Assembly: GCF_014211915.1 (NCBI RefSeq)
Contig: NZ_CP060040.1
Coordinates: 2,046,001 to 2,110,000 of the forward strand
Length of the DNA: 64,000 nucleotides
Direction of reading: 5' to 3'
From: Burkholderia cenocepacia
GTDB lineage: Bacteria; Pseudomonadota; Gammaproteobacteria; Burkholderiales; Burkholderiaceae
Translations under genes and position numbers: made by a program
In this document: positions 5,834 to 61,042 of the stretch, piece after piece
Layout of the letters: each line of letters opens with the position of its first letter
How positions within the stretch are numbered: position 1 is the stretch's first letter
The notes under the pieces: generated by a model
The model's input: the letters and a program-made list of their open reading frames with translations, nothing else
What the model was told of the DNA's origin: nothing
Database searches by the model: none

Positions 5834-6904
5834 CTACGATCGGCCGTCCATCACGACGCGCCCTTCGGCGCGCCAGCGCAGCATCCCGCCGCCGAGATTC
5901 GCGACCGCGTCGAAGCCGGCCTTCTTCAGGATCACCGTCGCCTGAGCGGAGCGCCCGCCGGCCCGGCACACGGTCACCACCGGCCGGTCGTGCGCGATTT
6001 CACCGGTGCGCGCGGCCAGTTCGCCGAGCGGGATCGGCGTCGCGCCGGGCAGATGGCCGAGCGGGCCCGCAAATTCGTCCGGCTCGCGCACGTCGACGAC
6101 CTGCACCGCCGGCAGATGATCCTCGAGCCATTGCGGATCGATTTCCCAGAAGCCGGCGAACGTATAGACGAGCGGCGCCCAGTCTGCGGTCGCCTGCGCA
6201 TCGGGTGCGTTCGCGGCGACGCCGCACTGCAGGTTCGCCGGCACCGCGACGTCAATCTGGCGCGGATGCGCGAGCCCGAGGTTGCGCATGTAGCCCGCGA
6301 AATCGTCTTCGCTGAGATCGCCGCCGAGACGCGGGTTGAAGCGCCGCTCCTCGCCGACGCTCGTCACCGTGAGCCCGCGATAGTCGTGCGCGGGATACAG
6401 CAGGCACGCGGCCGGCAGCGTGAAGAGCCGGCCGTGCACCGCGCGATACAGCGCGCGCGGGTCGCCCTGCTGGAAGTCGGTGCGGCCGGTGCCGCGGATC
6501 AGCAGGCAATCGCCGGTGAACGCCATCGATTCGTCGTCGAGCACGAGGCTGATGCAGCCGCTCGTGTGGCCAGGCGTCGCGCGCACGGTCAGGTAGCGCG
6601 GGCCGAACGCGCAGCGATCGCCGTCGTTCAGGTAGCGGTCGGCGCCGTGCGCGCCGCTCGCGGCCGAAATCACGATCGCGCTGCCGGTGCGCTGCTTCAG
6701 CAGCCACGCGCCCGTCACGTGATCGGCATGCACGTGCGTATCGACGGTCGCGACGAGCCGCAATCCGAGTTCGTCGAGCAGTGCCGCGTCGCGACGCACC
6801 TGCTCGAACACGGGATCGATCAGCAGCGCCTCGCGCGATGCGCGGTCGGCGAGCAGATACGTGTATGTCGACGATTGCGGATCGAAAAGTTGCCGGAAGA
6901 TCAT
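5834..6904 (-). CDS. persulfide dioxygenase-rhodanese fusion (ETHE1-like MBL fold)
   Basis: 356 residues. Residues 1-240 are a metallo-beta-lactamase fold of the ETHE1 type: HVHADHVTG (HxHxDH), TPGHTSG, FTGDCLLIRGTGRTDF and YPAHDYRG supply the ligands for the mononuclear iron. Residues 260-356 are a rhodanese domain with active-site loop CRAGGRSAQAT. ETHE1 enzymes oxidise glutathione persulfide to sulfite; a fused rhodanese can interconvert persulfide/sulfite and thiosulfate, as shown for PRF enzymes of Burkholderiaceae. It lies upstream of, and divergent from, an ArgP-like regulator, with 288 bp between them. It probably acts in cytoplasmic sulfide or cysteine detoxification. Confidence 0.92.
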   Translation of the reverse strand: MIFRQLFDPQSSTYTYLLADRASREALLIDPVFEQVRRDAALLDELGLRLVATVDTHVHADHVTGAWLLKQRTGSAIVISAASGAHGADRYLNDGDRCAFGPRYLTVRATPGHTSGCISLVLDDESMAFTGDCLLIRGTGRTDFQQGDPRALYRAVHGRLFTLPAACLLYPAHDYRGLTVTSVGEERRFNPRLGGDLSEDDFAGYMRNLGLAHPRQIDVAVPANLQCGVAANAPDAQATADWAPLVYTFAGFWEIDPQWLEDHLPAVQVVDVREPDEFAGPLGHLPGATPIPLGELAARTGEIAHDRPVVTVCRAGGRSAQATVILKKAGFDAVANLGGGMLRWRAEGRVVMDGRS

Positions 6905-14091: not shown

Positions 14092-15408
14092 TTAGCGCAG
14101 CGCATCCAGTTCGCGCGCAAACCGCTCCAGGCCCGGTTTAAGAAAGGCATGCACATCGGGCTCCAACCCAAGATCCGTTCCTTGATCGGCGATCTCCTGT
14201 AGGCGCGGTGCCATTGCACGCAGCCGCGTCTGCAATGCATCGCGATCAAGCACGGGTCGCTCGCTCCCCGCCCAGGATTCGCTCGACCGAACCACCGTGT
14301 CAAGCACTCTCGCCCAGTCCGGCCGGCCACCGTCATTTCCCTCCCAGCGAATGCGTCGGGAAATGCCATCGGGATGCAGATACATCGGCGCAAAGTCGAA
14401 AAGCGGCGTCAACGCAATGCGCCCTTGGAAATCGCGTTGCAACGCGGTGTTTCGCGCATGATTGTCCTTATTGCCCAACGCAAGATTGGCGACGTCGCGA
14501 CACAAGTACTCCGCAACCTCGGCCTGGGAATCGGTACATTGCCGTACGAGATGCGCGCATACCTCGTCGTGACTCGGCACGACGCCGAAGCCGGCTTTGC
14601 CCGTCAACGAAGCAATGCTTTCCTGGGCGAACCGGACAACGCCGTCACCCACTCGCGCGCGATCGAACCGCGGAATGAACAGCGCCCGATCACGCAGCGT
14701 CAGCGGTGCATGCACGCGCAGACCGAGACGCCGGGCCAACGCCATGTAGGGCGCTTCGTGGCGCAGAATCTGTGCAAGACGCTCGTTGCTGCCGCGTCCG
14801 AACTTGACGATGTAGTGTGCAACCGCACGCTCGTCGGGCAGCGTGTGATCGAGGTAGAGCAGCCCATCGTCGGCGCGGGTCAGCAATAGCTTCGGCCATT
14901 CACCCTGCACGCCGGAAGAGCCTGCAACGAAGAATCCGTGTTCGGCGAGATACTCGCTGAATGCGTCTCCGCGCATGGCCACTTCGTCGTCCGTGAAACC
15001 GTGCTGCGGCCCTTGTTGCTCGGCGAGCCATTGGGCGGCTTCCTTGATTCGCAGATTGCCGATCGAATTACCAGCTCCCGCCAGCAGTAAGGGCCAGTCG
15101 GCTCGCTCCTCCGCCGTTTCCGGCAAATCGAGGCTGCGCAACAGTTCCTGGCGACCGAAACCCTGGGGCAACAAATCGATCAGGAAAACCGGCCAATGGG
15201 ATGTCACCAGCGGCTTGAGTTCGACGGGAAAGGTGCACGACATCGCATGCGCATCGCGCGCAGCCTGATGACGAACGATCCATTCAACGCCGTAGCCCGA
15301 GTAGGCGCGAGCGCGCCATCCTCCGTCAGGCTCGCCGAACAAGGTGACGCTGCCGATGTCGTGCCAGTGACCGGCGGCGTGAAGCTGAATGGTGCAGGAA
15401 TTCGTCAT
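14092..15408 (-). CDS. hipA: HipA-family serine/threonine kinase toxin
   Basis: 438 residues, the size of E. coli HipA. The N-terminal subdomain-1 motif PVFLIDLLPQGFGRQELL, the flexible Ser loop GSSGVQGEWPKLLL, the catalytic loop LALGNKDNHARN (Asp and Asn of the kinase site) and the metal-binding LTPLFDFAPMY are all present, so the kinase looks intact. HipA phosphorylates glutamyl-tRNA synthetase in E. coli, causing growth arrest; the substrate here is unknown. Unlike the canonical hipB-hipA order, hipA is transcribed first. No strong Shine-Dalgarno precedes the ATG. Confidence 0.9.
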   Translation of the reverse strand: MTNSCTIQLHAAGHWHDIGSVTLFGEPDGGWRARAYSGYGVEWIVRHQAARDAHAMSCTFPVELKPLVTSHWPVFLIDLLPQGFGRQELLRSLDLPETAEERADWPLLLAGAGNSIGNLRIKEAAQWLAEQQGPQHGFTDDEVAMRGDAFSEYLAEHGFFVAGSSGVQGEWPKLLLTRADDGLLYLDHTLPDERAVAHYIVKFGRGSNERLAQILRHEAPYMALARRLGLRVHAPLTLRDRALFIPRFDRARVGDGVVRFAQESIASLTGKAGFGVVPSHDEVCAHLVRQCTDSQAEVAEYLCRDVANLALGNKDNHARNTALQRDFQGRIALTPLFDFAPMYLHPDGISRRIRWEGNDGGRPDWARVLDTVVRSSESWAGSERPVLDRDALQTRLRAMAPRLQEIADQGTDLGLEPDVHAFLKPGLERFARELDALR

Positions 15409-24381: not shown

Positions 24382-27300
24382 ATGACTGAACCACTTGCCT
24401 CCGCGGCGCTGCAAACGATCGAGCTGAACGTCGACGGCATGCATTGCGGCGGCTGCACGGGCCGCGTGCAGCGCGCGCTGGCCGCCGTGCCGGGCGTCGT
24501 CGATGCGGCGGTCGATCTGGATGCGCATACGGCGACGGTCACCGCGCAGGAAACCGTCGCGCCGGATCAGCTCGTGAACGCCGTCCATCAGGCCGGCTAT
24601 CGCGCCGCGGTGCGCGACGCGGCCGGCGAAGCCGTCGCGCGCCCGCATGCGGCGCACACGACAGCGGACGCAACGCCGTCTGCGCCGGCTGCCGCCACGA
24701 CGATCGAACTCGATATCGATGGCATGACCTGCGCGTCGTGCGTGTCGCGCGTCGAGAAGGCGCTCGTCAAGGTGCCGGGCGTCACGCGTGCATCGGTCAA
24801 CCTGGCGACCGAACGTGCGACGGTCGACGCGTCGGCCGGCGTTTCGGCCACGCAATTGGCGGATGCCGTGAAGCAGGCCGGCTACGGCGCGACGCCGACG
24901 GCGTCGGACATCGACGTCCCGGCCCTCGCCCCTACCCTGCCCACCGCGCCCGCAAGTATCGAACTCGACATCGACGGGATGACCTGCGCGTCCTGCGTGT
25001 CGCGCGTCGAGAAGGCGCTCGCGAAGGTGCCGGGCGTCACGCGTGCATCGGTCAACCTCGCAACCGAACGCGCGACGGTCGACGCATCGGACGACGTATC
25101 CGCCGCCCAGCTTGTCGATGCGGTGAAACAGGCCGGCTACGGCGCGACACCGACTGCCGTCGCCGCGCCGTCCGCCACGCCCGCTTCCGCCGACGTCGAA
25201 CTCGACATCAGCGGCATGACCTGCGCGTCCTGCGCCGGCCGCGTCGAAAAAGCGCTGGCCGCCGTGCCGGGCGTCGCCCGGGCGACGGTCAATCTCGCGA
25301 CCGAACGCGCGTCGGTGCACGGCGCCGGCGCACTCGACGCCGCCACGCTGATCGCAGCGGTCACCACAGCCGGCTACCGTGCGTCGCTTCCGGCCGCGTC
25401 ATCCGCCAGCGCACCGGCCGGCGCCGACTTACAGCCGGCCAGCCCCGCGCAGGACCCCGACGCCCGCAAGCGCCGCGAAGCGATTCGCGAACGCACCCTC
25501 GTGATCGGCGCCGCCATGCTGAGCGCGCCGCTCGTCGCGCCGATGCTCGCCGCACCGTTCGGTATCGACCTGATGCTGCCCGGCTGGCTTCAGTTGGTGC
25601 TCGCGTCGATCGTGCAATTCGGCTTCGGCGCGCGCTTCTACCGGGCGGCCTGGCATGCGGTGAAGGCACGCACCGGCAACATGGACCTGCTCGTCGCGCT
25701 CGGCACGTCGGCCGCGTACGGGCTGAGCCTGTGGATGCTGCTGCGCGATCCCGCGCATCCCGGTCATCTGTATTTCGAAGCGTCGGCCGTCATCGTCACG
25801 CTCGTGCGCTTCGGCAAGTGGCTCGAATCGCGCGCGAAGCGCCAGACCACCGAGGCGATCCGCGCGCTGAACGCGCTGCGCCCCGACCGCGCGCGCGTCG
25901 TCGAGCACGGCGTGGAACGCGACGTGCCGCTGTCGCAGGTGCGCGTCGGCACGCGCGTCGGCATCCGGCCCGGCGAGCGCGTGCCCGTCGACGGACGGAT
26001 CGTGTCGGGCCGCTCGCACATCGACGAATCGCTGATCACCGGCGAAAGCCTGCCCGTGCCGAAGGACGATGGCGACGCCGTCACGGCCGGCTCGATCAAC
26101 GGCGAAGGCGCGCTCGTCGTCGAAACCACCGCGATCGGCGCGGAGACGACGCTCGCGCGCATCATCCGCCTCGTCGAATCCGCACAGGCCGAGAAGGCGC
26201 CGATCCAGCGGCTCGTCGATCGCGTCAGCGAGGTGTTCGTGCCGGCGATCCTCGGCATCGCCGTGCTGACGCTCGTCGGCTGGCTGATCGCCGGCGCCGG
26301 GACGGAAACCGCGATCCTCAACGCGGTCGCGGTGCTCGTGATCGCGTGCCCGTGCGCGCTCGGTCTCGCGACGCCCGCCGCGATCATGGCCGGCACGGGC
26401 GTCGCGGCCCGGCACGGCGTGCTGATCAAGGACGCGCAGGCGCTCGAGCTCGCGCAACGCACGACCGTGATCGCGTTCGACAAGACCGGCACGCTGACCG
26501 AAGGCAAGCCGTCCGTGACGGCGTTCGACGCCGTCGGCGTGCCGCGCGCCGAAGCGCTCGCGCTCGCGGCGGCCGTGCAGCGGCAGAGCGACCATCCGCT
26601 CGCGCGTGCGGTGGTCGCCGCGCACGACGCGGACGTGGCCGCACAGGGCGGTGCGGCCGAGTCGGTCGTCGCGACCGATGCGCGCGCGGTGGCCGGGCGC
26701 GGCGTGGAAGCGCACGTCGGCGGGCAACAGCTTGCGCTCGGCAGCACGCGCTGGCGCGACGAACTCGGCATCGCGGTGCCGCCGGCGCTCGATGCGCATG
26801 CGGCGGAACTCGAACGCGCGGGCAACACGATCTCGTGGCTGATGCGTGCCGATACGCCGCGCGCGGTGCTCGCGCTGATCGCCTTCGGCGACACCGTGAA
26901 GCCGGGCGCCCGCGACGCGATCGCGGCGCTGTCAGCGCGCGGCGTCGCGAGCGCGCTCGTGACGGGCGACAACCGCGGCAGCGCGGCGGCCGTCGCGGCG
27001 GCGCTCGGCATCGGCGAAGTGCACGCGCAGGTGCTGCCCGACGACAAGGCACGGGTCGTCGCCGAGCTGAAGCGCACGCACGGCGGAATCGTCGCGATGG
27101 TCGGCGACGGGATCAACGATGCGCCCGCGCTCGCCGCGGCGGACGTCGGCATCGCGATGGCGACCGGCACCGACGTCGCGATGCACACGGCCGGCATCAC
27201 GCTGATGCGCGGCGACCCGGCGCTCGTCGCCGACGCGATCGACATTTCCAAACGCACGTACCGCAAGATCCAGCAGAACCTGTTCTGGGCGTTCGTGTAC

Positions 27301-27466: not shown

Positions 27467-27584
<118 letters not shown>

Positions 27585-28215: not shown

Positions 28216-28335
28216 CGAATCAGCGAATCAGCGAATCAGCGAATCAGCGAATCAGCGAATCAGCGAATCAGCGAATCAACGAATCAACGAATCAACGAAT
28301 CAACGAATCAACGAATCAGCGAATCAACGAATCAA
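28216..28335. repeat. fifteen copies of an 8-bp tandem repeat
   Basis: Fifteen perfectly phased octamers, CGAATCAG (eight copies) or CGAATCAA (seven copies), with no other variation. The last unit contains the stop codon of the DUF3563 gene, so the array forms the start of that gene's 3' region. It is not coding: the unit length is not a multiple of three, and the open frame across it is repetitive and belongs to no gene. Confidence 0.95.
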
Positions 28336-28487
28336 CGACGGTACAGGACGATCGGCACCAGGTTTGCACGGCGCACGCGCTCGGCTTCGGCGTGACGTGC
28401 GGCGTACGAGTAGTCGGCGTCGAGCGGCAGGTGCGGGGACACGAACAGGTCGTCGATTTTTTGCAGCAAGGCGAAGATGAAGCTCAT
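28332..28487 (-). CDS. DUF3563 family small protein
   Basis: 51 residues, MSFIFALLQKIDDLFVSPHL, then PLDADYSYAARHAEAERVRR and the end ANLVPIVLYRR. This is the pattern of DUF3563 proteins, found throughout Burkholderia, of unknown function. The N-terminal hydrophobic helix may associate with a membrane. A CAGGAG ribosome-binding site precedes the ATG by 5-6 bases. Upstream are two copies of AGGGTTTTCCCT with a plausible -10 (TAGAAT) between them. The stop codon lies within a tandem octamer array. Confidence 0.82.
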   Translation of the reverse strand: MSFIFALLQKIDDLFVSPHLPLDADYSYAARHAEAERVRRANLVPIVLYRR

Positions 28488-28661: not shown

Positions 28662-30068
28662 TTAGCGGGTGCGACGAACCCGCTTCGCGACGGCCGCCTC
28701 GCGGTTTGCGCTGCGCTGAAGCCGGTCGACTTGCGACAGGAGCGCTTCGTGGTGCTCCTCGAGCGTCATCAGCGTGGCCTGCTGCGTCGACAGATCGGCC
28801 GCGAGGCGATCGATCCGTTGCTGCTTGGTGGCCACGTCCTGCTTCAGGTGCGCGATCTGCCGCGTTTGCAGCACCAGCGCGACGAGCCCTACCAGCACGA
28901 CGACGGCCAGCGCCAGCAGCAGCCGGTTGACGCGGCGCATCTCGCGATCGGCCGACCGCGTCAGGCCGTCCACGTCGGACTGCAGCGCGGCGAGCCGGTC
29001 GGTCAGCGGGCGCAGGTGCGTGTCCGGATCGAAGACCGGCGCGAGCGGTTGCGGGCGCTCCGACGAGGGCTTGGTGACGAACGAGGCGGCGGATACCGCC
29101 GGCTGCGCAACCGGCGACGGCGAAGCGTCGGGCTGCGGGGTCGTGTCGCGGGGCTTCGCGGAAGGTGTGGCGATTGCCGGTTCGAGCGGCCGCACCGACT
29201 GTGCCGACTGTGCCGACTGTGCCGACTGGGTCGGCTGTGCCGGCGTCTGCGGCTCGACCGGCACGGCGACGACCAGCGGCGGGTTCGAGTCAACCGCTTC
29301 CGGCTTCGAATCGACGCTCGTCGCAACTGCTACGGTTGGCGTCGTCGCCGCTTCATTGCCCCCGGCAGCCGCCCGACGCTTGCCGCCCGACGACGAGCGA
29401 CGCTCTTTCACCGCATCCCCCGAAGATTTCCCTTCGCGGGATTTGACGACCGCCGCGTCGACGACAGGCTTCGCAACTTCTCCATTTGCCGCTTGCGACT
29501 CCGCCGCCTGCGCCGCAGCGCCATCGTCGGCTTCCAGCTTCGTCTCCGCGTTCGCGGCGCGGTCGACCGCGGGCACGTCGATCTGCGTTACGCCGCCATC
29601 GACCGCTGGCAAATCGGCGGCCTTCGTTGCAAGCTCCTCTGCCGATGCGCCGTCGACGTTCGCGGCCACATCGCCTTCAGGTGTCGAAACGGAAACGGCC
29701 TCGACCGCCCCATCCTGCGCCGCCGTACCTTCAGCTTCCGCACGCGTTGCCGCCGCCGCATCCGCCAGCGGGATAAACCCGTCCAGCGTAGCCTGTCGCC
29801 CGTCATCGGCACCGGCCGCCGCCTCGGCTTCCCCGAGCCCTTCCTCGCGCGCCGTCACCGGCACGCGCTCGCCCGGCTCCAGCACCGGATCGCCGAACAG
29901 GTCGAGCGTCCGTTCGTCGCGCGGCGCGTCGCCGGCCGGTGCGCTGCCGGACCGCGCCGTCGCCTTGGCGGACGTGCTGCCTGCGGCAGCGGCCGAGCGC
30001 GGGCGCGAACGGGCCGACGAACGGGTGGGACGGGAGCGGGAACGAGGCGTGGAAACGGATTCGGTCAT
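28662..30068 (-). CDS. membrane-anchored coiled-coil hypothetical protein
   Basis: 468 residues, no family recognised. Residues 1-330 are low complexity: an Arg/Ser-rich start (TPRSRSRPTRSSARSRPRS), acidic Ala-rich middle, and a SAQ triplet repeat (four 9-bp DNA units near 29201-29236). Residues 350-380 are helical (LTDRLAALQSDVDGLTRSADREMRR), followed by one transmembrane helix (LLLALAVVVLVGLVALVLQ) and a C-terminal coiled coil (TKQQRIDRLAADLSTQQATL). A disordered cytoplasmic N-terminus with an anchored coiled coil suggests a scaffold or envelope-linked protein; function unknown. Confidence 0.75.
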   Translation of the reverse strand: MTESVSTPRSRSRPTRSSARSRPRSAAAAGSTSAKATARSGSAPAGDAPRDERTLDLFGDPVLEPGERVPVTAREEGLGEAEAAAGADDGRQATLDGFIPLADAAAATRAEAEGTAAQDGAVEAVSVSTPEGDVAANVDGASAEELATKAADLPAVDGGVTQIDVPAVDRAANAETKLEADDGAAAQAAESQAANGEVAKPVVDAAVVKSREGKSSGDAVKERRSSSGGKRRAAAGGNEAATTPTVAVATSVDSKPEAVDSNPPLVVAVPVEPQTPAQPTQSAQSAQSAQSVRPLEPAIATPSAKPRDTTPQPDASPSPVAQPAVSAASFVTKPSSERPQPLAPVFDPDTHLRPLTDRLAALQSDVDGLTRSADREMRRVNRLLLALAVVVLVGLVALVLQTRQIAHLKQDVATKQQRIDRLAADLSTQQATLMTLEEHHEALLSQVDRLQRSANREAAVAKRVRRTR

Positions 30069-55890: not shown

Positions 55891-56712
55891 ATGCAGACAA
55901 CCAACGACCCGCTTCCCGGCTGCGACGCACGGGAATCGATGGCCGCTATCGACCGCTATCGCGCACCCGCGCTCGACAAGGGCCTCGACATTCTCGAACT
56001 CCTGTCCGAGCAGAAGGAAGGACTCACCCGCACCGAAATCACGAAGGAACTCGGCCGTAACGCGAGCGAAATCTACCGGATGCTCGAACGTCTCGTCGCG
56101 CGCCGCTACGTGATGCGTTCGACCGGCGGCGACCGCTACACGCTCAGCCTCAAGCTGTTCGCGCTTGCGCACCGGCATCCGCCGATGAACCGGCTGATCG
56201 CCGAGGCGCTGCCGCCGATGCAGCGCTTCGCGGATGCCGCCGAACAGTCGTGCCACCTGTCCGTCTACGATCGCGGCAACATGCTCGTGATCGCGCAGGT
56301 GGACGGGCCCGGCCCATGGGGCGTATCGGTGCGACTCGGCTCGCGCGTCGGGCTCGCCGATACCGCGTCGGGGCGCATGCTGCTGGCGTTCCAGGGCCCC
56401 GAGCAACGCGCGCACATGCTGGCCGAGCATCGCAAGGTCAAGGGTGAAGCACCGCTGAACGAGCAGGAACTCGCGAATGCGTGCCAGTCGATCCGGCAGT
56501 CCGGCTACCTGCGTCAGGACAGCCGCCAGGCGTACGGCGTGACCGACCTGACCGTGCCGATCCTCGGGCCGGCCGGCCATGCGATCGCGGTGCTGACGTG
56601 TCCGTACATGCGGCGCATCGACGCGCACATGGCGCCGTCCGTCGACGTGGTCGTCGACGCGCTGCGCGACACGGCCGCCCATCTGTCGATGTGCCGCACC
56701 GAGGCCTGCTGA
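55891..56712 (+). CDS. IclR family transcriptional regulator
   Basis: 273 residues, intact. The winged HTH is near 28-85 (APALDKGLDILELLSEQKEG, then TRTEITKELGRNASEIYRMLERL), and the effector domain includes SCHLSVYDRGNMLVIAQVDGPG, LADTASGRMLLAF and GVTDLTVPILGPAGHAIAVLTCPY. It probably regulates the divergent FAH-family hydrolase in sugar-acid or aromatic catabolism. An alternative start at 55939 would remove 16 residues before the conserved region. Confidence 0.9.
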   Translation: MQTTNDPLPGCDARESMAAIDRYRAPALDKGLDILELLSEQKEGLTRTEITKELGRNASEIYRMLERLVARRYVMRSTGGDRYTLSLKLFALAHRHPPMNRLIAEALPPMQRFADAAEQSCHLSVYDRGNMLVIAQVDGPGPWGVSVRLGSRVGLADTASGRMLLAFQGPEQRAHMLAEHRKVKGEAPLNEQELANACQSIRQSGYLRQDSRQAYGVTDLTVPILGPAGHAIAVLTCPYMRRIDAHMAPSVDVVVDALRDTAAHLSMCRTEAC

Positions 56713-56895
56713 CGCGCGGGTTCCCCGGCAAAGCGCGCCGGGCACGGCGCAGCGGCACCGACTCCGGTTGCGCGCAATGCCCGCGGTGGCCGATATGCGA
56801 TGTCGCATCGGCCACCCGTGGCGCTACGCTAGAATAGCGGCCCTCTCAAAAACTACGGCGGCCGGTTGTCGCGGCCGTCGTGTCCGATGGATGTC

Positions 56896-57438
56896 ATGGC
56901 CAAACTTCTGAACGATCAAGAATTCCAGCGTTTCTCCGAACTTCAGCAGAAGCAGGCAAGCTTCACGATCACGCCCGAGGAAGCGGACGAGCTGCGCGAT
57001 ATCGTCGCGCGCGCGCAGAAGAAGCGCGACGATCGTGCCGCCGCAATGCAGGCGATCGAGAACTACATCGAGCAGTTCGACATCACGCCTGACGAACTCT
57101 TCTCGCCCGAGCAGATCGGCGACGCGGCGCGTACCTACGGGCTCATCACGGCGACCAAGAAGGAACGCACGCTGCCGCCGTCGATCACGTTCAACGGCAA
57201 GCCGTACCAGTGGACCAAGACGCTTCCGGACGACGTGCGCGGCGCACTGTTCGACGCGTTCACGTCCGGCGAGTCGGTCAAGCGCTTCATCGCGATGCCG
57301 AAAGACACCGCGCGCTGTGCGCTGACGATCGCCCGCCTCGAGCGCGAAACCGGTGCCGTCTATGCCGATCCGCACCTCGAGGAACTCGCGATTTCGCGCG
57401 ACCAGGTGAACGACGCGGCGTCGAAACTCGCTGCGTGA
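56896..57438 (+). CDS. H-NS-like N-terminal protein with an unrelated C-terminal domain
   Basis: 180 residues. Residues 5-60 are helical (FQRFSELQQKQASFTITPEEADELRDIVARAQKKRDD), followed by IEQFDITPDELF and KKERTLPPSITFNGKPYQW. The order helix, DITPxEL, KxRTLPP matches the true H-NS protein encoded at 61043-61348 (YDITPEELGF, KPKRTLPPKY), but the TWSGRGRAPAWL DNA-binding end is absent. In its place is about 65 residues (LPDDVRGALFDAFTSGESVKRFIAMPKD, then LTIARLERETGAVYADPHLEEL). A -10-like TAGAAT lies at 56830. Function unknown; perhaps an H-NS partner. The start could also be the ATG at 56887. Confidence 0.7.
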   Translation: MAKLLNDQEFQRFSELQQKQASFTITPEEADELRDIVARAQKKRDDRAAAMQAIENYIEQFDITPDELFSPEQIGDAARTYGLITATKKERTLPPSITFNGKPYQWTKTLPDDVRGALFDAFTSGESVKRFIAMPKDTARCALTIARLERETGAVYADPHLEELAISRDQVNDAASKLAA

Positions 57439-57534
57439 ATGTAATCACGGGCACGGTTCCTGCGTGCCCGTACCTCCGCGTGACGCCGGCATTGGCCGGC
57501 GCCGCGCCCGCCGGGAGCCGTGCATTCGCATGCT

Positions 57535-57810
57535 CCCGAAAAAGCTCACCTCAGCATCCCGCAAGCGCTCACCGCAGCTTCCCGTAAAAGCTCACCCAAG
57601 GCTCCCGGAGACGCTCACTGACGCCTCCCGAACGTCCTCACCGATCGCTCCCGCAAGTGCTCACCGGGGCGTCCCGGAAAGGCTCACCGGCCTCTCCCGC
57701 AGGTGCTCACCGGCCGTTCCCGGGAAGGCTCACCGAACACTCCCGTATCGGCTCACCACGCTGTCCCGGAAAAGCTCACTCGCCGCTCCCGAAAAGTCTC
57801 ACCTTGGCGA
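57535..57810 (+). repeat. array of twelve 23-bp units (CCCG-N6-CTCACC-N7)
   Basis: Twelve head-to-tail units, each exactly 23 bp, fill 276 bp, beginning 97 bp after the H-NS-like gene. Every unit starts CCCG; CTCAC occupies positions 11-15 in all twelve, and position 16 is C in ten (T in two). The last base is T in eleven. The six bases between the blocks are variable and purine-rich; the last seven are free. No two units are identical, so the array is old or under selection at the conserved blocks. The plus strand is open in all three frames, but the unit length and divergence pattern do not look coding. Confidence 0.93.
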
Positions 57811-58105
57811 CGGCTTCGAATTTGCAAGGCCGGAATACGGCCACGCACGTGTGCAAGCACATCGCTTGAAACGGCTACCCACGGTGAACGCAGGATGAAT
57901 ATAGGCAGCACGTGACGTGCATCGCCGGACATCGCGCGCGCTTCGCGGTATCGCTGCGATCGACGGGTTCGACACGTTCGCAGGCGCTTCACGCAGGAGG
58001 CTGGTTCAAACGCTTTGCGTTCCTGAGTTAACTTCCGACATGGCGAAACGTCGGGACGCATTGCTGTCATGCGCTACCCTCGAGCATCGAACCACAGGGT
58101 GACGC
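57811..58105. other. intergenic region after the repeat array
   Basis: About 295 bp between the array and the convergent Pat-type gene. No terminator hairpin with a T run and no gene was recognised on either strand. Confidence 0.5.
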
Positions 58106-60463
58106 CTACGGCTGCAACTTCATCCTGAAACCCACGACGCCGGGTTCCTCCGTCGTCGACACCGCAAACCCGCATGATTTCGCGAGCGAGATCATCGCCG
58201 AATTCTCGCGCAGCGCCTCGCCGACCATCCAGGCGGTGCCGCGCGAGCGGGCGTAGTCGATGATGCGGGTCATCATCAGCCGGCCGAGCCCCTTGCCCTT
58301 TTGATCGGGCCGTACCGCGATCGCGAACTCCGCCGTCTCGTTGTCGGGATCGGCGACCGCACGCGCCACCGCGAGCGTATGGTCTCGCCCCGACACATCG
58401 GTAAACGACACGATGAACGCCATCTCGCGGTCGTAGTCGATCTGGGTCATGCGCGCCACCTGCGAATGATCGAAGCTGCGCACCGCGCCGAAGAAACGCA
58501 TCCGCAGATCTTCCGGCGTCATCGCACCGAGCAGTTCGTTGTGTGCGGCCTCGTCCTCCGGACGGATCGGACGGATCGTCACCGTCTCGCCACGCCACTC
58601 GAGTGTCTGCTCGAGGTGTCGCGGATACGGCATGATCGCGAGCCGGCTGCGCCCCGAGGCGAGCGTGATGCGCGGCGCGATCACCCATGCGCGGTCGGAC
58701 AGCACGCGCAGCGTGACCGACATCGCCACCACTTCCCGCACGTCGCAGACGATCTGCGACAGCACCGTCAGCGCGTCGAGCGTCGGCTCGACAGGCGTGC
58801 TGCGCGCATACGGCGAGCGCTCCATCACCGCGCGGGCGAGCACGGTGTTCAGCGGCGGCAGGCCGTAGACGACGAACGGCGCCGATACACCGTCCGCAGG
58901 CGGCACGGCATAGCGAAACACAGGACCGAAATTCGAATCGTCGTACATGTCGACCGTGATATCGACGACCTTCTTGCCGGCCGGTTCGTTGGACTGCTCG
59001 CCCTGCAGACCGAAATGGGACAGCCAGCGCAACGCGGCTTCACCGGCCAGTTCATGCTGACCGGCTTCGACCATGCGGCGCGCGTCGGCCTGGGCGGACG
59101 CCACGCACTCGGCCGGCTGCGGCGGCGTGCCCTCAGGTGTCTGCATCAGCAGTTGGCGCCCGAGGTTGTAGTCGACGAGACGCGCATACGCGCGTGCGAG
59201 CCGCTGCGGCGTCGTGTGCACCGGAATGCCGTTCGCGTGCAGCGCATCGCGCGTCGCCGCGTCGACCGCGCCGAAGAAACACGCGAGGATGCCGCGATGC
59301 GCGTACTGCCGCGAGTCGATCAGCGTACGCGCGACCGAATCGGCCGGCGCGCTGTGCGAAGTGGAATGGACGACGAACAGCGTGCCCGTCTGCGGAAACG
59401 GGGCGAGCGCCTTGATCGCCGCCGCAAAGTGCTCGGGGTGTGCATCGTCGCCCAGCGTGAGCGGATTGCCGGGCGCCGCGAGATGCGGCAGCGCGGCCGC
59501 GACGGCCGACGTTGCGGCAGGCGACCAGTCGGTCAGCACGTCACGCACCTCGGCCACCGCATCGACCGCGAGTTTCGCCACGCCCGCGTCGCTCGTCACG
59601 AGCGTCGCCGCCCCTCGCGCGGTGACGCGGCCGACGCCGAGCGTCTCGATTTCGTCGAGCAGATCGTCGAGCGCATCGACGCGCACCATGCCCGCGCGCT
59701 GGAATGCCGCCGTGTAGAGCGCGTCGCCAGGATCGGCACGGCCGGTGCGCAGCGCGAGCACCGGCTTGTTGCGTGCCGCCGCGCGCGCCGCCGACATGAA
59801 CTTGCGCGCCGCGCGCACGGTATCGAGCTCGAGCAGGATCGCGCGTGTGCCGGGATCGCTCGCCAGATAGTCGAGGACATCGCCCGCATCGACGTCGGAT
59901 TCGCTGCCGAGCGCGACGACATGCGAAAAGCCGAGACCCCGCGCATCGGCCCAGCCCAGCACCGCGTTCGTCAACGCATTCGATTGCGACACCCACGCGA
60001 CGCCGCCCGATCGCGCCGTGTAGGCAGGCGCGCCGAAATGCGCATGCCGCACGGGCGACAACACGCCCAGGCTGCCGGGCCCGACGATACGGAGCACGAA
60101 CGGCTTCGCCGCCTTCAGCATGCGATCGACCGCGGCGCGATCGGCATCGGTGCGCGCCTCGCCGACGATCACCGCGACGCGCGCGCCCAGCTCACCGAGC
60201 TTGCGCACGATGCCGGCCCAGGTCGCGGGCGGCGTGCAGATCACGGCAACCGACGGCGGCGCGGGCAACCGGTCGACATCGGAAACGACCGCATGCCCGT
60301 CCAGTTCGCGATATTTCGGATTCACGGGCCACACGGGCCCCTGGAACGCGCCGTCGAGCACGCGCGACCACACCATCGCGCCGATACTGCCCGCGCGCGA
60401 CGACGCGCCGACGACCGCAACGGACTTGGGCTGGAACAACGCATCGAGATGGCGAACGGTCAC
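58106..60463 (-). CDS. Pat-type bifunctional protein: NDP-forming acyl-CoA synthetase domains plus GNAT acetyltransferase
   Basis: 785 residues. The N-terminal CoA-binding Rossmann domain begins LDALFQPKSVAVVGASSRAGSIGAMVW, then the succinyl-CoA-ligase-like domain (SGGVAWVSQSNALTNAVLGWADARGLGFSHVVALGSESDV) and an ATP-grasp-like region. The C-terminal GNAT domain (about 620-785) has IAVRPDQKGKGLGRLMMTRIIDYARSRG with the acetyl-CoA loop. This is the organisation of Pat/YfiQ protein lysine acetyltransferases, which inhibit acyl-CoA synthetases such as PrpE and Acs. A link to propionate metabolism is plausible but only inferred. Confidence 0.88.
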   Translation of the reverse strand: MTVRHLDALFQPKSVAVVGASSRAGSIGAMVWSRVLDGAFQGPVWPVNPKYRELDGHAVVSDVDRLPAPPSVAVICTPPATWAGIVRKLGELGARVAVIVGEARTDADRAAVDRMLKAAKPFVLRIVGPGSLGVLSPVRHAHFGAPAYTARSGGVAWVSQSNALTNAVLGWADARGLGFSHVVALGSESDVDAGDVLDYLASDPGTRAILLELDTVRAARKFMSAARAAARNKPVLALRTGRADPGDALYTAAFQRAGMVRVDALDDLLDEIETLGVGRVTARGAATLVTSDAGVAKLAVDAVAEVRDVLTDWSPAATSAVAAALPHLAAPGNPLTLGDDAHPEHFAAAIKALAPFPQTGTLFVVHSTSHSAPADSVARTLIDSRQYAHRGILACFFGAVDAATRDALHANGIPVHTTPQRLARAYARLVDYNLGRQLLMQTPEGTPPQPAECVASAQADARRMVEAGQHELAGEAALRWLSHFGLQGEQSNEPAGKKVVDITVDMYDDSNFGPVFRYAVPPADGVSAPFVVYGLPPLNTVLARAVMERSPYARSTPVEPTLDALTVLSQIVCDVREVVAMSVTLRVLSDRAWVIAPRITLASGRSRLAIMPYPRHLEQTLEWRGETVTIRPIRPEDEAAHNELLGAMTPEDLRMRFFGAVRSFDHSQVARMTQIDYDREMAFIVSFTDVSGRDHTLAVARAVADPDNETAEFAIAVRPDQKGKGLGRLMMTRIIDYARSRGTAWMVGEALRENSAMISLAKSCGFAVSTTEEPGVVGFRMKLQP

Positions 60464-60701: not shown

Positions 60702-61040
60702 GGTGAGGATTTACAGGAGCCATGGTGAGTATCTTCGGGAATCGCACGACACACCGCGCCAACACGCGAAAGGTGATGAAAATCGGCACCATGCATGCAC
60801 CGCGAAAATCGCGAATGCCAATGCGTGTGCGTTACGCCATTACACGCTTGTTTACGGAAATTCCCCGCAATATGCGGCCGGATCACAGCAAATTCGCAAA
60901 ACAGGAGCCGTTAATTGCGCGGCATTGCACTTCAATTCGGCGGGAAAAATCGCATGGCGACCGCACCAAAACAAAACGGTGCGAAGGCCGGAAGGCCGTT
61001 CGCACCGTCAGTCGGTACAGGAAAGGTGAGGATTTTCGGG
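60702..61040 (-). repeat. dispersed copies of the CCCG-N6-CTCACC motif downstream of hns
   Basis: On the minus strand (hns sense) the motif occurs as CTCCCGAAAATCCTCACC at 61025-61042, immediately after the hns stop; as TTCCCGAAGATACTCACC at 60724-60741; as CTCCTGTAAATCCTCACC at 60702-60719; and in weaker form (GCCG-N6-ATCACC) at 60772-60787. All keep the six-base spacing seen in the 57.5-kb array. The copy nearest hns lies between its stop codon and its terminator. Confidence 0.75.
60968..61007 (-). terminator. terminator of the hns gene
   Basis: A stem of CGGTGCGAA and TTCGCACCG plus an inner GGCC/GGCC pairing is followed on the minus strand by TTTTGTTTTGG. It lies about 35 bp after the hns stop. 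Confidence 0.8.
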
Positions 61041-61042
61041 AG

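Follow-up and report, generated by a model that had tools for sequence, protein, structure and literature searches.

The iterons that govern incompatibility and copy number in plasmids such as P1 (incA), RK2, F and R6K are arranged head to tail, about two helical turns apart, and serve a Rep_3-type initiator. In Vibrio cholerae, sites located 40 kb from the chromosome-2 origin, ori2, bind the initiator RctB, titrate it and lower the copy number of ori2 plasmids (PMC3937223; PMC6090056). For Burkholderia cenocepacia J2315, the chromosome-2 (c2) iteron has been given in a figure legend as ctCCCGAAAAacCTCACCTtt, and a single legend line places a second iteron cluster at a distance of 140 kb from the origin (Du et al., 2016; PMC4948915). 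Here we analyse a 64,000-nucleotide stretch of a B. cenocepacia genome (hereafter the window; assembly GCF_014211915.1, contig NZ_CP060040.1, positions 2,046,001 to 2,110,000 of the forward strand), which carries a tandem array of twelve 23-bp units. We propose that this array is probably an off-origin cluster of chromosome-2 iterons that titrates the chromosome-2 initiator, or handcuffs it, after ori2 has fired.

The units follow one another head to tail on the plus strand in exact phase. Each consists of TCCCG (box 1), six free bases (the interior) and CTCAC (box 2), followed by C in 10 of the 12 and by T in the other two; a 6-bp spacer completes the unit (Table 1). A first-pass annotation, made from the letters alone, had described twelve exact 23-bp units with CCCG at position 1 (57535) and CTCAC at position 11, no two of them identical. 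This is accurate for all twelve, although the motif is longer than was noted: T precedes CCCG in 12/12 units, and C or T follows the second box. In addition, A occupies the second interior base in 11/12. TCCCGN6CTCAC has 14 matches in the window against 0.14 expected (100 dinucleotide shuffles, maximum 2), twelve of them the array and two on the minus strand, at 60725 and 61026. When a two-unit pattern was run with up to three mismatches over the strain's own 7.6-Mb genome (four contigs), 11 of the 12 matches fell in the array and the twelfth, with three mismatches, in ori2; this search found no second such array, and its reversed control gave 0. The array is placed between the 3' ends of two convergent genes. 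The gene before it had been called H-NS-like, a label we do not retain, as its protein has no Pfam and no NCBIfam match.

The motif extended by one base, TCCCGN6CTCACC, has 40 exact sites in the genome (reversed control, 3), and 30 of these fall within C2:2103534-2259262; the array accounts for ten and a 1.3-kb stretch for nine. With at most one mismatch allowed, that stretch has 18 sites, all on one strand. This stretch, directly 5' of a gene for a 455-aa Rep_3 initiator (Pfam Rep3_N and Rep3_C) that adjoins parA and parB and then a kfrA-like gene, is the chromosome-2 origin. The array lies 138 kb from the initiator gene, rep, on the same contig (chromosome 2). Array units and ori2 iterons share one direct-repeat motif, two boxes with a free interior between them, and all point the same way; the head-to-tail spacing of about two helical turns is that of the plasmid Rep_3 iterons. 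The predicted model of the initiator has the Rep_3 fold with its two winged helices, and resembles RepE and π bound to iteron DNA. Such a pair of winged helices would account for boxes spaced by one turn, and fits the two contacts about one helical turn apart that had been suggested from the sequence. We conclude from the shared motif that the array is almost certainly a set of sites for the chromosome-2 initiator, in line with the iteron-like protein-binding array that was among the options first offered.

Because it lies 138 kb from rep, the array is very probably the cluster mentioned by Du et al. (2016), and its units have the same 17-bp core as the J2315 c2 iterons (PMC4948915). The initial remark that no described element has this form was thus mistaken. 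The passages of Du et al. that concern the cluster do no more than mention it, with nothing on sequence form, phase, conservation, selection or function, and a literature search, in which most matches were judged from listings, found no treatment of it beyond the legend line. What is new here is the form of the array, its spread and conservation, the selection on it, its proposed role, and the finding that, in 32 of 41 genomes, chromosome-2-type iterons stand next to the chromosome-3 origin.

Other iterons occur singly or in pairs on chromosome 2. To the right of ori2, within about 18 kb, there is a set on the minus strand (L065:19568-19608; L066:4447, 6103-6149 and 14225-14263) with counterparts in other genomes whose sites were listed. 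The interior TATCGG (window 57741, which is array unit 10, L065:16771 and L067:2485) is shared by unit 10, a lone site 26 kb from the array and an early ori2 iteron in 9/19 genomes read, and also turns up in some species with one or two iterons.

Conservation was assessed in 65 Burkholderia genomes, with the locus read in 57 of them (45 with the tandem pattern and 12 without) and the other eight contributing to the pattern count only. The initiator is present in 65/65 and the tandem pattern in 53/65, and all 57 loci read contain at least one exact iteron, with a range of one to 22 units (the largest array, in G040, has 22, of which 16 are exact). Across 60 distinct loci (56 genomes and four database records; sites with at most two mismatches), 466 of 540 steps measure exactly 23 bp and 510 measure 22–24 bp. 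The locus is the same and the phase mostly conserved, two points that the first-pass annotation had proposed to check; array length varies, and the 12 genomes without the tandem pattern hold just 1–6 exact iterons. Nine of these have two exact iterons 22–34 bp apart, G038 has one exact iteron and one with a mismatch, and G015 a single exact one; G013 has six, at steps of 46, 46, 68, 46 and 46 bp, a spacing that looks like the decay of every other unit. At one locus (L141, G021), a near-identical simple repeat of about 10 bp, GTGTTGGTC-like, follows the two iterons and is a true satellite.

Outside Burkholderia, iterons of the same type lie upstream of rep in 18 of 20 loci from other genera, with 11–18 sites of at most one mismatch, and the remaining two loci end at a contig edge. 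The motif is therefore family-wide, and the array at this locus is seen in Burkholderia only. A three-unit pattern (at most one mismatch) matched 51/398 genomes, all of one genus, with 10/61 sampled Burkholderia lacking it; a pattern with looser spacing matched 58/299 genomes in five genera. Six non-Burkholderia matches were inspected: three are ori2 itself (among them that of G245, which has a further four-site cluster elsewhere), and the others are a 14-bp satellite, a replicon with a 36%-identical Rep, and a three-site cluster with no rep match in its 3-kb locus. Of 53 stretches that a scan of named GTDB genomes gave, 34 bear the name Burkholderia. Five, from Caballeronia or ‘Burkholderia sp. 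Leaf177’, hold pairs off this locus with no flanking gene or rep within 8 kb, and a Janthinobacterium stretch holds a single pair in which both sites carry a mismatch. The 14 that remain, from Streptomyces among others, may be chance.

We then compared rates of change, as mean pairwise difference, over 17 fully phased loci (14 genomes, this one included, and three database records); four loci with compensating 22/24-bp steps were left out. Box 1 differs by 5.8% and box 2 by 2.8%, the interior by 20.7% and the spacer by 36.5%, with 21.4% for the gene-side flank and 40.2% for the downstream flank. The figures for units 2–11, which did not serve as anchors, are similar (6.9%, 3.4%, 20.9% and 36.6% respectively), and the A at interior base 2 differs by 2.0% only. 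At the free positions, orthologous units are 71% alike, compared with 37% for non-orthologous units and 38% for units within one genome; units have therefore not been homogenised or copied over each other. To judge from these sequences, boxes and phase are held while spacers drift, and the array is under selection. The earlier preference for selection over a satellite agrees with this, relatives having the same locus, mostly in the same phase, with units that are not identical copies.

The distance between the midpoints of the flanking gene and rep was obtained for 47 of the 65 genomes (six contigs taken as circular; in the other 18, the genes are on different contigs or at contig ends). It is 103–238 kb in 39 genomes with the array (median 153 kb) and 97–273 kb in eight others. 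The side and orientation are the same in 37/39 and 6/8 respectively, and the rest look inverted about ori2. With a c2 fork speed of about 33 kb/min (PMC4948915), 138 kb means that the array is copied some 4 minutes after ori2 fires. These are thus origin-type sites that lie off the origin on the same replicon and, from their position, are copied early.

We believe that these properties are best accommodated if the array provides binding sites, 138 kb away, for the Rep_3-type initiator encoded at ori2. One initiator monomer would occupy each unit, with TCCCG contacted by one of its winged helices and CTCACC by the second, so that both contacts fall in neighbouring major grooves on one face of the DNA; the two-turn phase would let neighbouring initiators pack. 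Early copying of the array would double the sites and pull initiator off ori2, and array-bound initiator may also pair with ori2 (handcuffing), so that chromosome 2 would not re-fire within the same cycle. In its simplest form, this would be what the off-origin RctB sites do in V. cholerae, carried out here by twelve sites gathered in a single phased block. That the main role is such negative control of initiation is, in our analysis, likely though well short of certain.

Several observations weigh against this proposal. Interiors starting with AAAA are found in 2/12 array units versus 6/9 exact ori2 sites, and the less A-rich array may therefore be bound more weakly. The rate comparison took only in-phase loci with five or more exact units (17 loci), a choice that biases it towards conserved boxes; 21 loci, including four irregular ones, gave a weaker contrast (box 1, 13.8%; box 2, 17.8%; interior, 28.9%; spacer, 46.0%). 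A large array is not essential to the genus, because 12/65 genomes lack the tandem pattern and these have fewer exact sites in total (median 29 versus 38), with no compensation of small arrays by extra sites elsewhere in those genomes. Distance from ori2 is by itself weak evidence, because gene order is conserved in general. Finally, mutation of three prominent V. cholerae RctB sites outside ori2 had minimal effect on Chr2, with one weakly negative but significant (PMC11711613); by their VC gene numbers, those three sites sit on the other chromosome.

Of the alternatives, the one that survives best accepts that the initiator binds the array but assigns it a mainly positive or structural job, in which it bridges to ori2 or fosters remodelling of the initiator. 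The strict phase and per-unit conservation exceed the needs of a mere sink, array units have the orientation of the ori2 iterons in this genome, and the side of rep on which the array is found is shared by 37 of the 39 measured. Against this, the off-origin plasmid iterons described are inhibitory (PMC3937223), and we consider a positive role improbable, if not strikingly so.

The array might instead be a relic, iterons left from a rearranged ancestral ori2 neighbourhood that are bound, but with no effect. In six genomes of genus g10 (G093, G122, G131, G140, G157 and G164), the flanking gene is about 4.5–5.2 kb from rep, next to ori2 (12–17 kb in three further g10 genomes), which indicates that the locus was once adjacent to ori2 in relatives; the range of site number, 1 to 22, also speaks for a relic. 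However, boxes that differ by 3–7% beside spacers that differ by 37% are hard to reconcile with it, and none of the 13 other-genus loci read has an iteron between the two flanking genes, which stay together in all of them; this includes two loci no more than about 5 kb from rep. A lone match does occur within the second flanking gene at two of the 13. We regard a relic as quite unlikely.

That Rep regulates transcription of the flanking genes, using the array as an operator, is very unlikely. Three more iterons, one of them mismatched, do lie at 60702-61041, 239–578 bp upstream of the start of the acetyltransferase gene at 60463. Nevertheless, the genes on either side of the array converge, with their 3' ends towards it, no sigma-70-like promoter came up when 56700-58200 was scanned with a consensus, and in V. 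cholerae two other genes with RctB sites at their promoters were altered little or not at all (PMC11711613).

A repetitive RNA exposing CUCACC loops, which the first-pass annotation had also entertained, or a protein-coding repeat, has a negligible chance. In favour of the RNA, the C-rich boxes look like the 16S 3' end, but only by eye; on the other side, the sequence does not fold better than its shuffles (z = -0.28 and -0.45 for the two strands), no Rfam family reaches threshold (best 23.8 bits versus 40), 23 is not a multiple of 3, the 144-aa frame has no Pfam match, and the same boxes make up the ori2 cluster. The double-hairpin CU-rich small RNAs of Burkholderia (PMC5688073), considered as relatives, were dropped once the ori2 match appeared. 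A neutral slippage satellite, for which a fixed tandem period is the argument, is refuted by the rate pattern with its lack of homogenisation, and the genuine satellite that matched by chance in G138, with its near-identical 14-bp units, looks quite different, so that we give this reading next to no weight.

The chromosome-2 initiator may have a further target. A rep paralogue, 35–37% identical, is found in 54/65 genomes, in this one on the third chromosome, and the stretch upstream of it was read in 41 of the 54 (two batches, of 21 and 20). One or two exact chromosome-2-type iterons are present there in 32/41 (18/21 and 14/20; reversed control, 0 exact in 41), the first exact one being about 1.6–1.75 kb away from the start of rep in 31 of these genomes and about 3.1 kb away in G029; 31 of the 32 have a partner, exact or with one mismatch, 32–35 bp away. 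The nine without are G013, G014, G024, G025, G028, G037, G052, G063 and G064. The chromosome-3 origin has its own, different iterons, mostly in the first 0.3–1.35 kb (eight regions mapped); neither the 40 kb around ori2 nor the window has any iterons of that type at up to one mismatch. This suggests that the chromosome-2 initiator touches the chromosome-3 origin. In G029, a chromosome-3-type rep lies on a 4.85-Mb contig (G029:C2:1370129-1371364), which may reflect a fusion of the third replicon to the main chromosome or a misassembly.

We tentatively consider, as a rather unlikely extension, that all these sites form one network, in which Rep would fill the sink array and also bind the chromosome-3 pair, and doubling of the array would both block re-firing of c2 and time the start of chromosome 3. 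If true, this would be a timer made of iterons alone, unlike crtS of Vibrio. There was no evidence of a conserved, crtS-like counterpart on chromosome 1 when its sequence in this genome was searched with the same motif; it has three exact sites, each inside a stop-to-stop open frame, and two of them are in or beside genes that look prophage-like by eye.

Table 1. Features of the array, its surroundings and the chromosome-3 origin (window coordinates unless a locus is named).
Feature	Position	Strand	Remarks
Tandem array, twelve 23-bp units	57534..57809	+	17-bp iteron core TCCCG-N6-CTCACC and 6-bp free spacer
Array unit starts	57534, 57557, 57580, 57603, 57626, 57649, 57672, 57695, 57718, 57741, 57764, 57787	+	core of units 4 and 11 ends in T
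Flanking gene, conserved protein of unknown family, synteny anchor	56896..57438	+	in 65/65 Burkholderia genomes
Convergent flanking gene, 785 aa; CoA-binding, succinyl-CoA-ligase-like and GNAT acetyltransferase domains	58106..60463	-	
Inverted repeat CGGGAG...CTCCCG	57512..57538	.	box 1 of unit 1 forms its right arm
Iteron with one mismatch, TCCTGTAAATCCTCACC	60702..60718	-	5' of the acetyltransferase/CoA-binding gene
Single exact iteron, TCCCGAAGATACTCACC	60724..60740	-	22 bp from the iteron at 60702-60718; counterparts in other genomes
Single exact iteron, TCCCGAAAATCCTCACC	61025..61041	-	counterparts in other genomes
Chromosome-2-type iterons beside chromosome-3-type origin	L070:1820-1870 (own C3:593819-593869); also L274-L293, L308-L327		

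The inverted repeat at the upstream edge of the array could act as an operator-like site for a dimer; in 30 of the 50 loci folded, a predicted stem includes box 1 of unit 1. Counterparts of the three iterons 5' of the acetyltransferase gene occur in the equivalent place in several other genomes among those whose sites were listed. Elsewhere in the window, three short-period tandem repeats (7, 8 and 9 bp) lie inside 2 kb, at 27467-27525, 28216-28338 and 29195-29242, and 24703-25162 is a 255-bp direct duplication, 87% matching, in a coding region with what appears by eye to be a metal-binding domain.

How secondary chromosomes outside Vibrio and Agrobacterium keep to one firing per cycle is an open issue; a 2026 survey still calls for such ‘timers’ (PMC13342612), and Du et al. 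considered a crtS-like link in Burkholderia worth exploring (PMC4948915). The array offers a conserved, deletable element of 276 bp with a named candidate protein and clear predictions, and the natural series of one to 22 units across species amounts to a dose series.

The array belongs to a known kind, the off-origin initiator sites, of which it is an unusually regular and large member. Like the RctB iterons and 39-mer sites of V. cholerae, it consists of origin-type sites on the same secondary chromosome, near but outside ori2 and copied early (PMC3937223; PMC6090056); V. cholerae has six dispersed sites of another motif over 74 kb, 40 kb away, whereas in Burkholderia up to 22 units form a single phased tandem array. 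The likeness to Escherichia coli datA, also an initiator-binding locus near but outside its origin, is one of role only, since datA binds DnaA and promotes DnaA-ATP hydrolysis (PMC3937223), while the array motif is that of a Rep_3 initiator. Plasmid iteron arrays stand at or beside the plasmid origin, in contrast to the 97–273 kb found here (47 genomes) on a replicon of chromosome size. With Vibrio crtS the array shares being an off-origin site tied to a secondary chromosome; crtS, however, belongs to chromosome 1, lacks the form of an iteron and acts as an activator (PMC6090056; PMC11711613), whereas the Burkholderia array is on chromosome 2 itself and is built of iterons.
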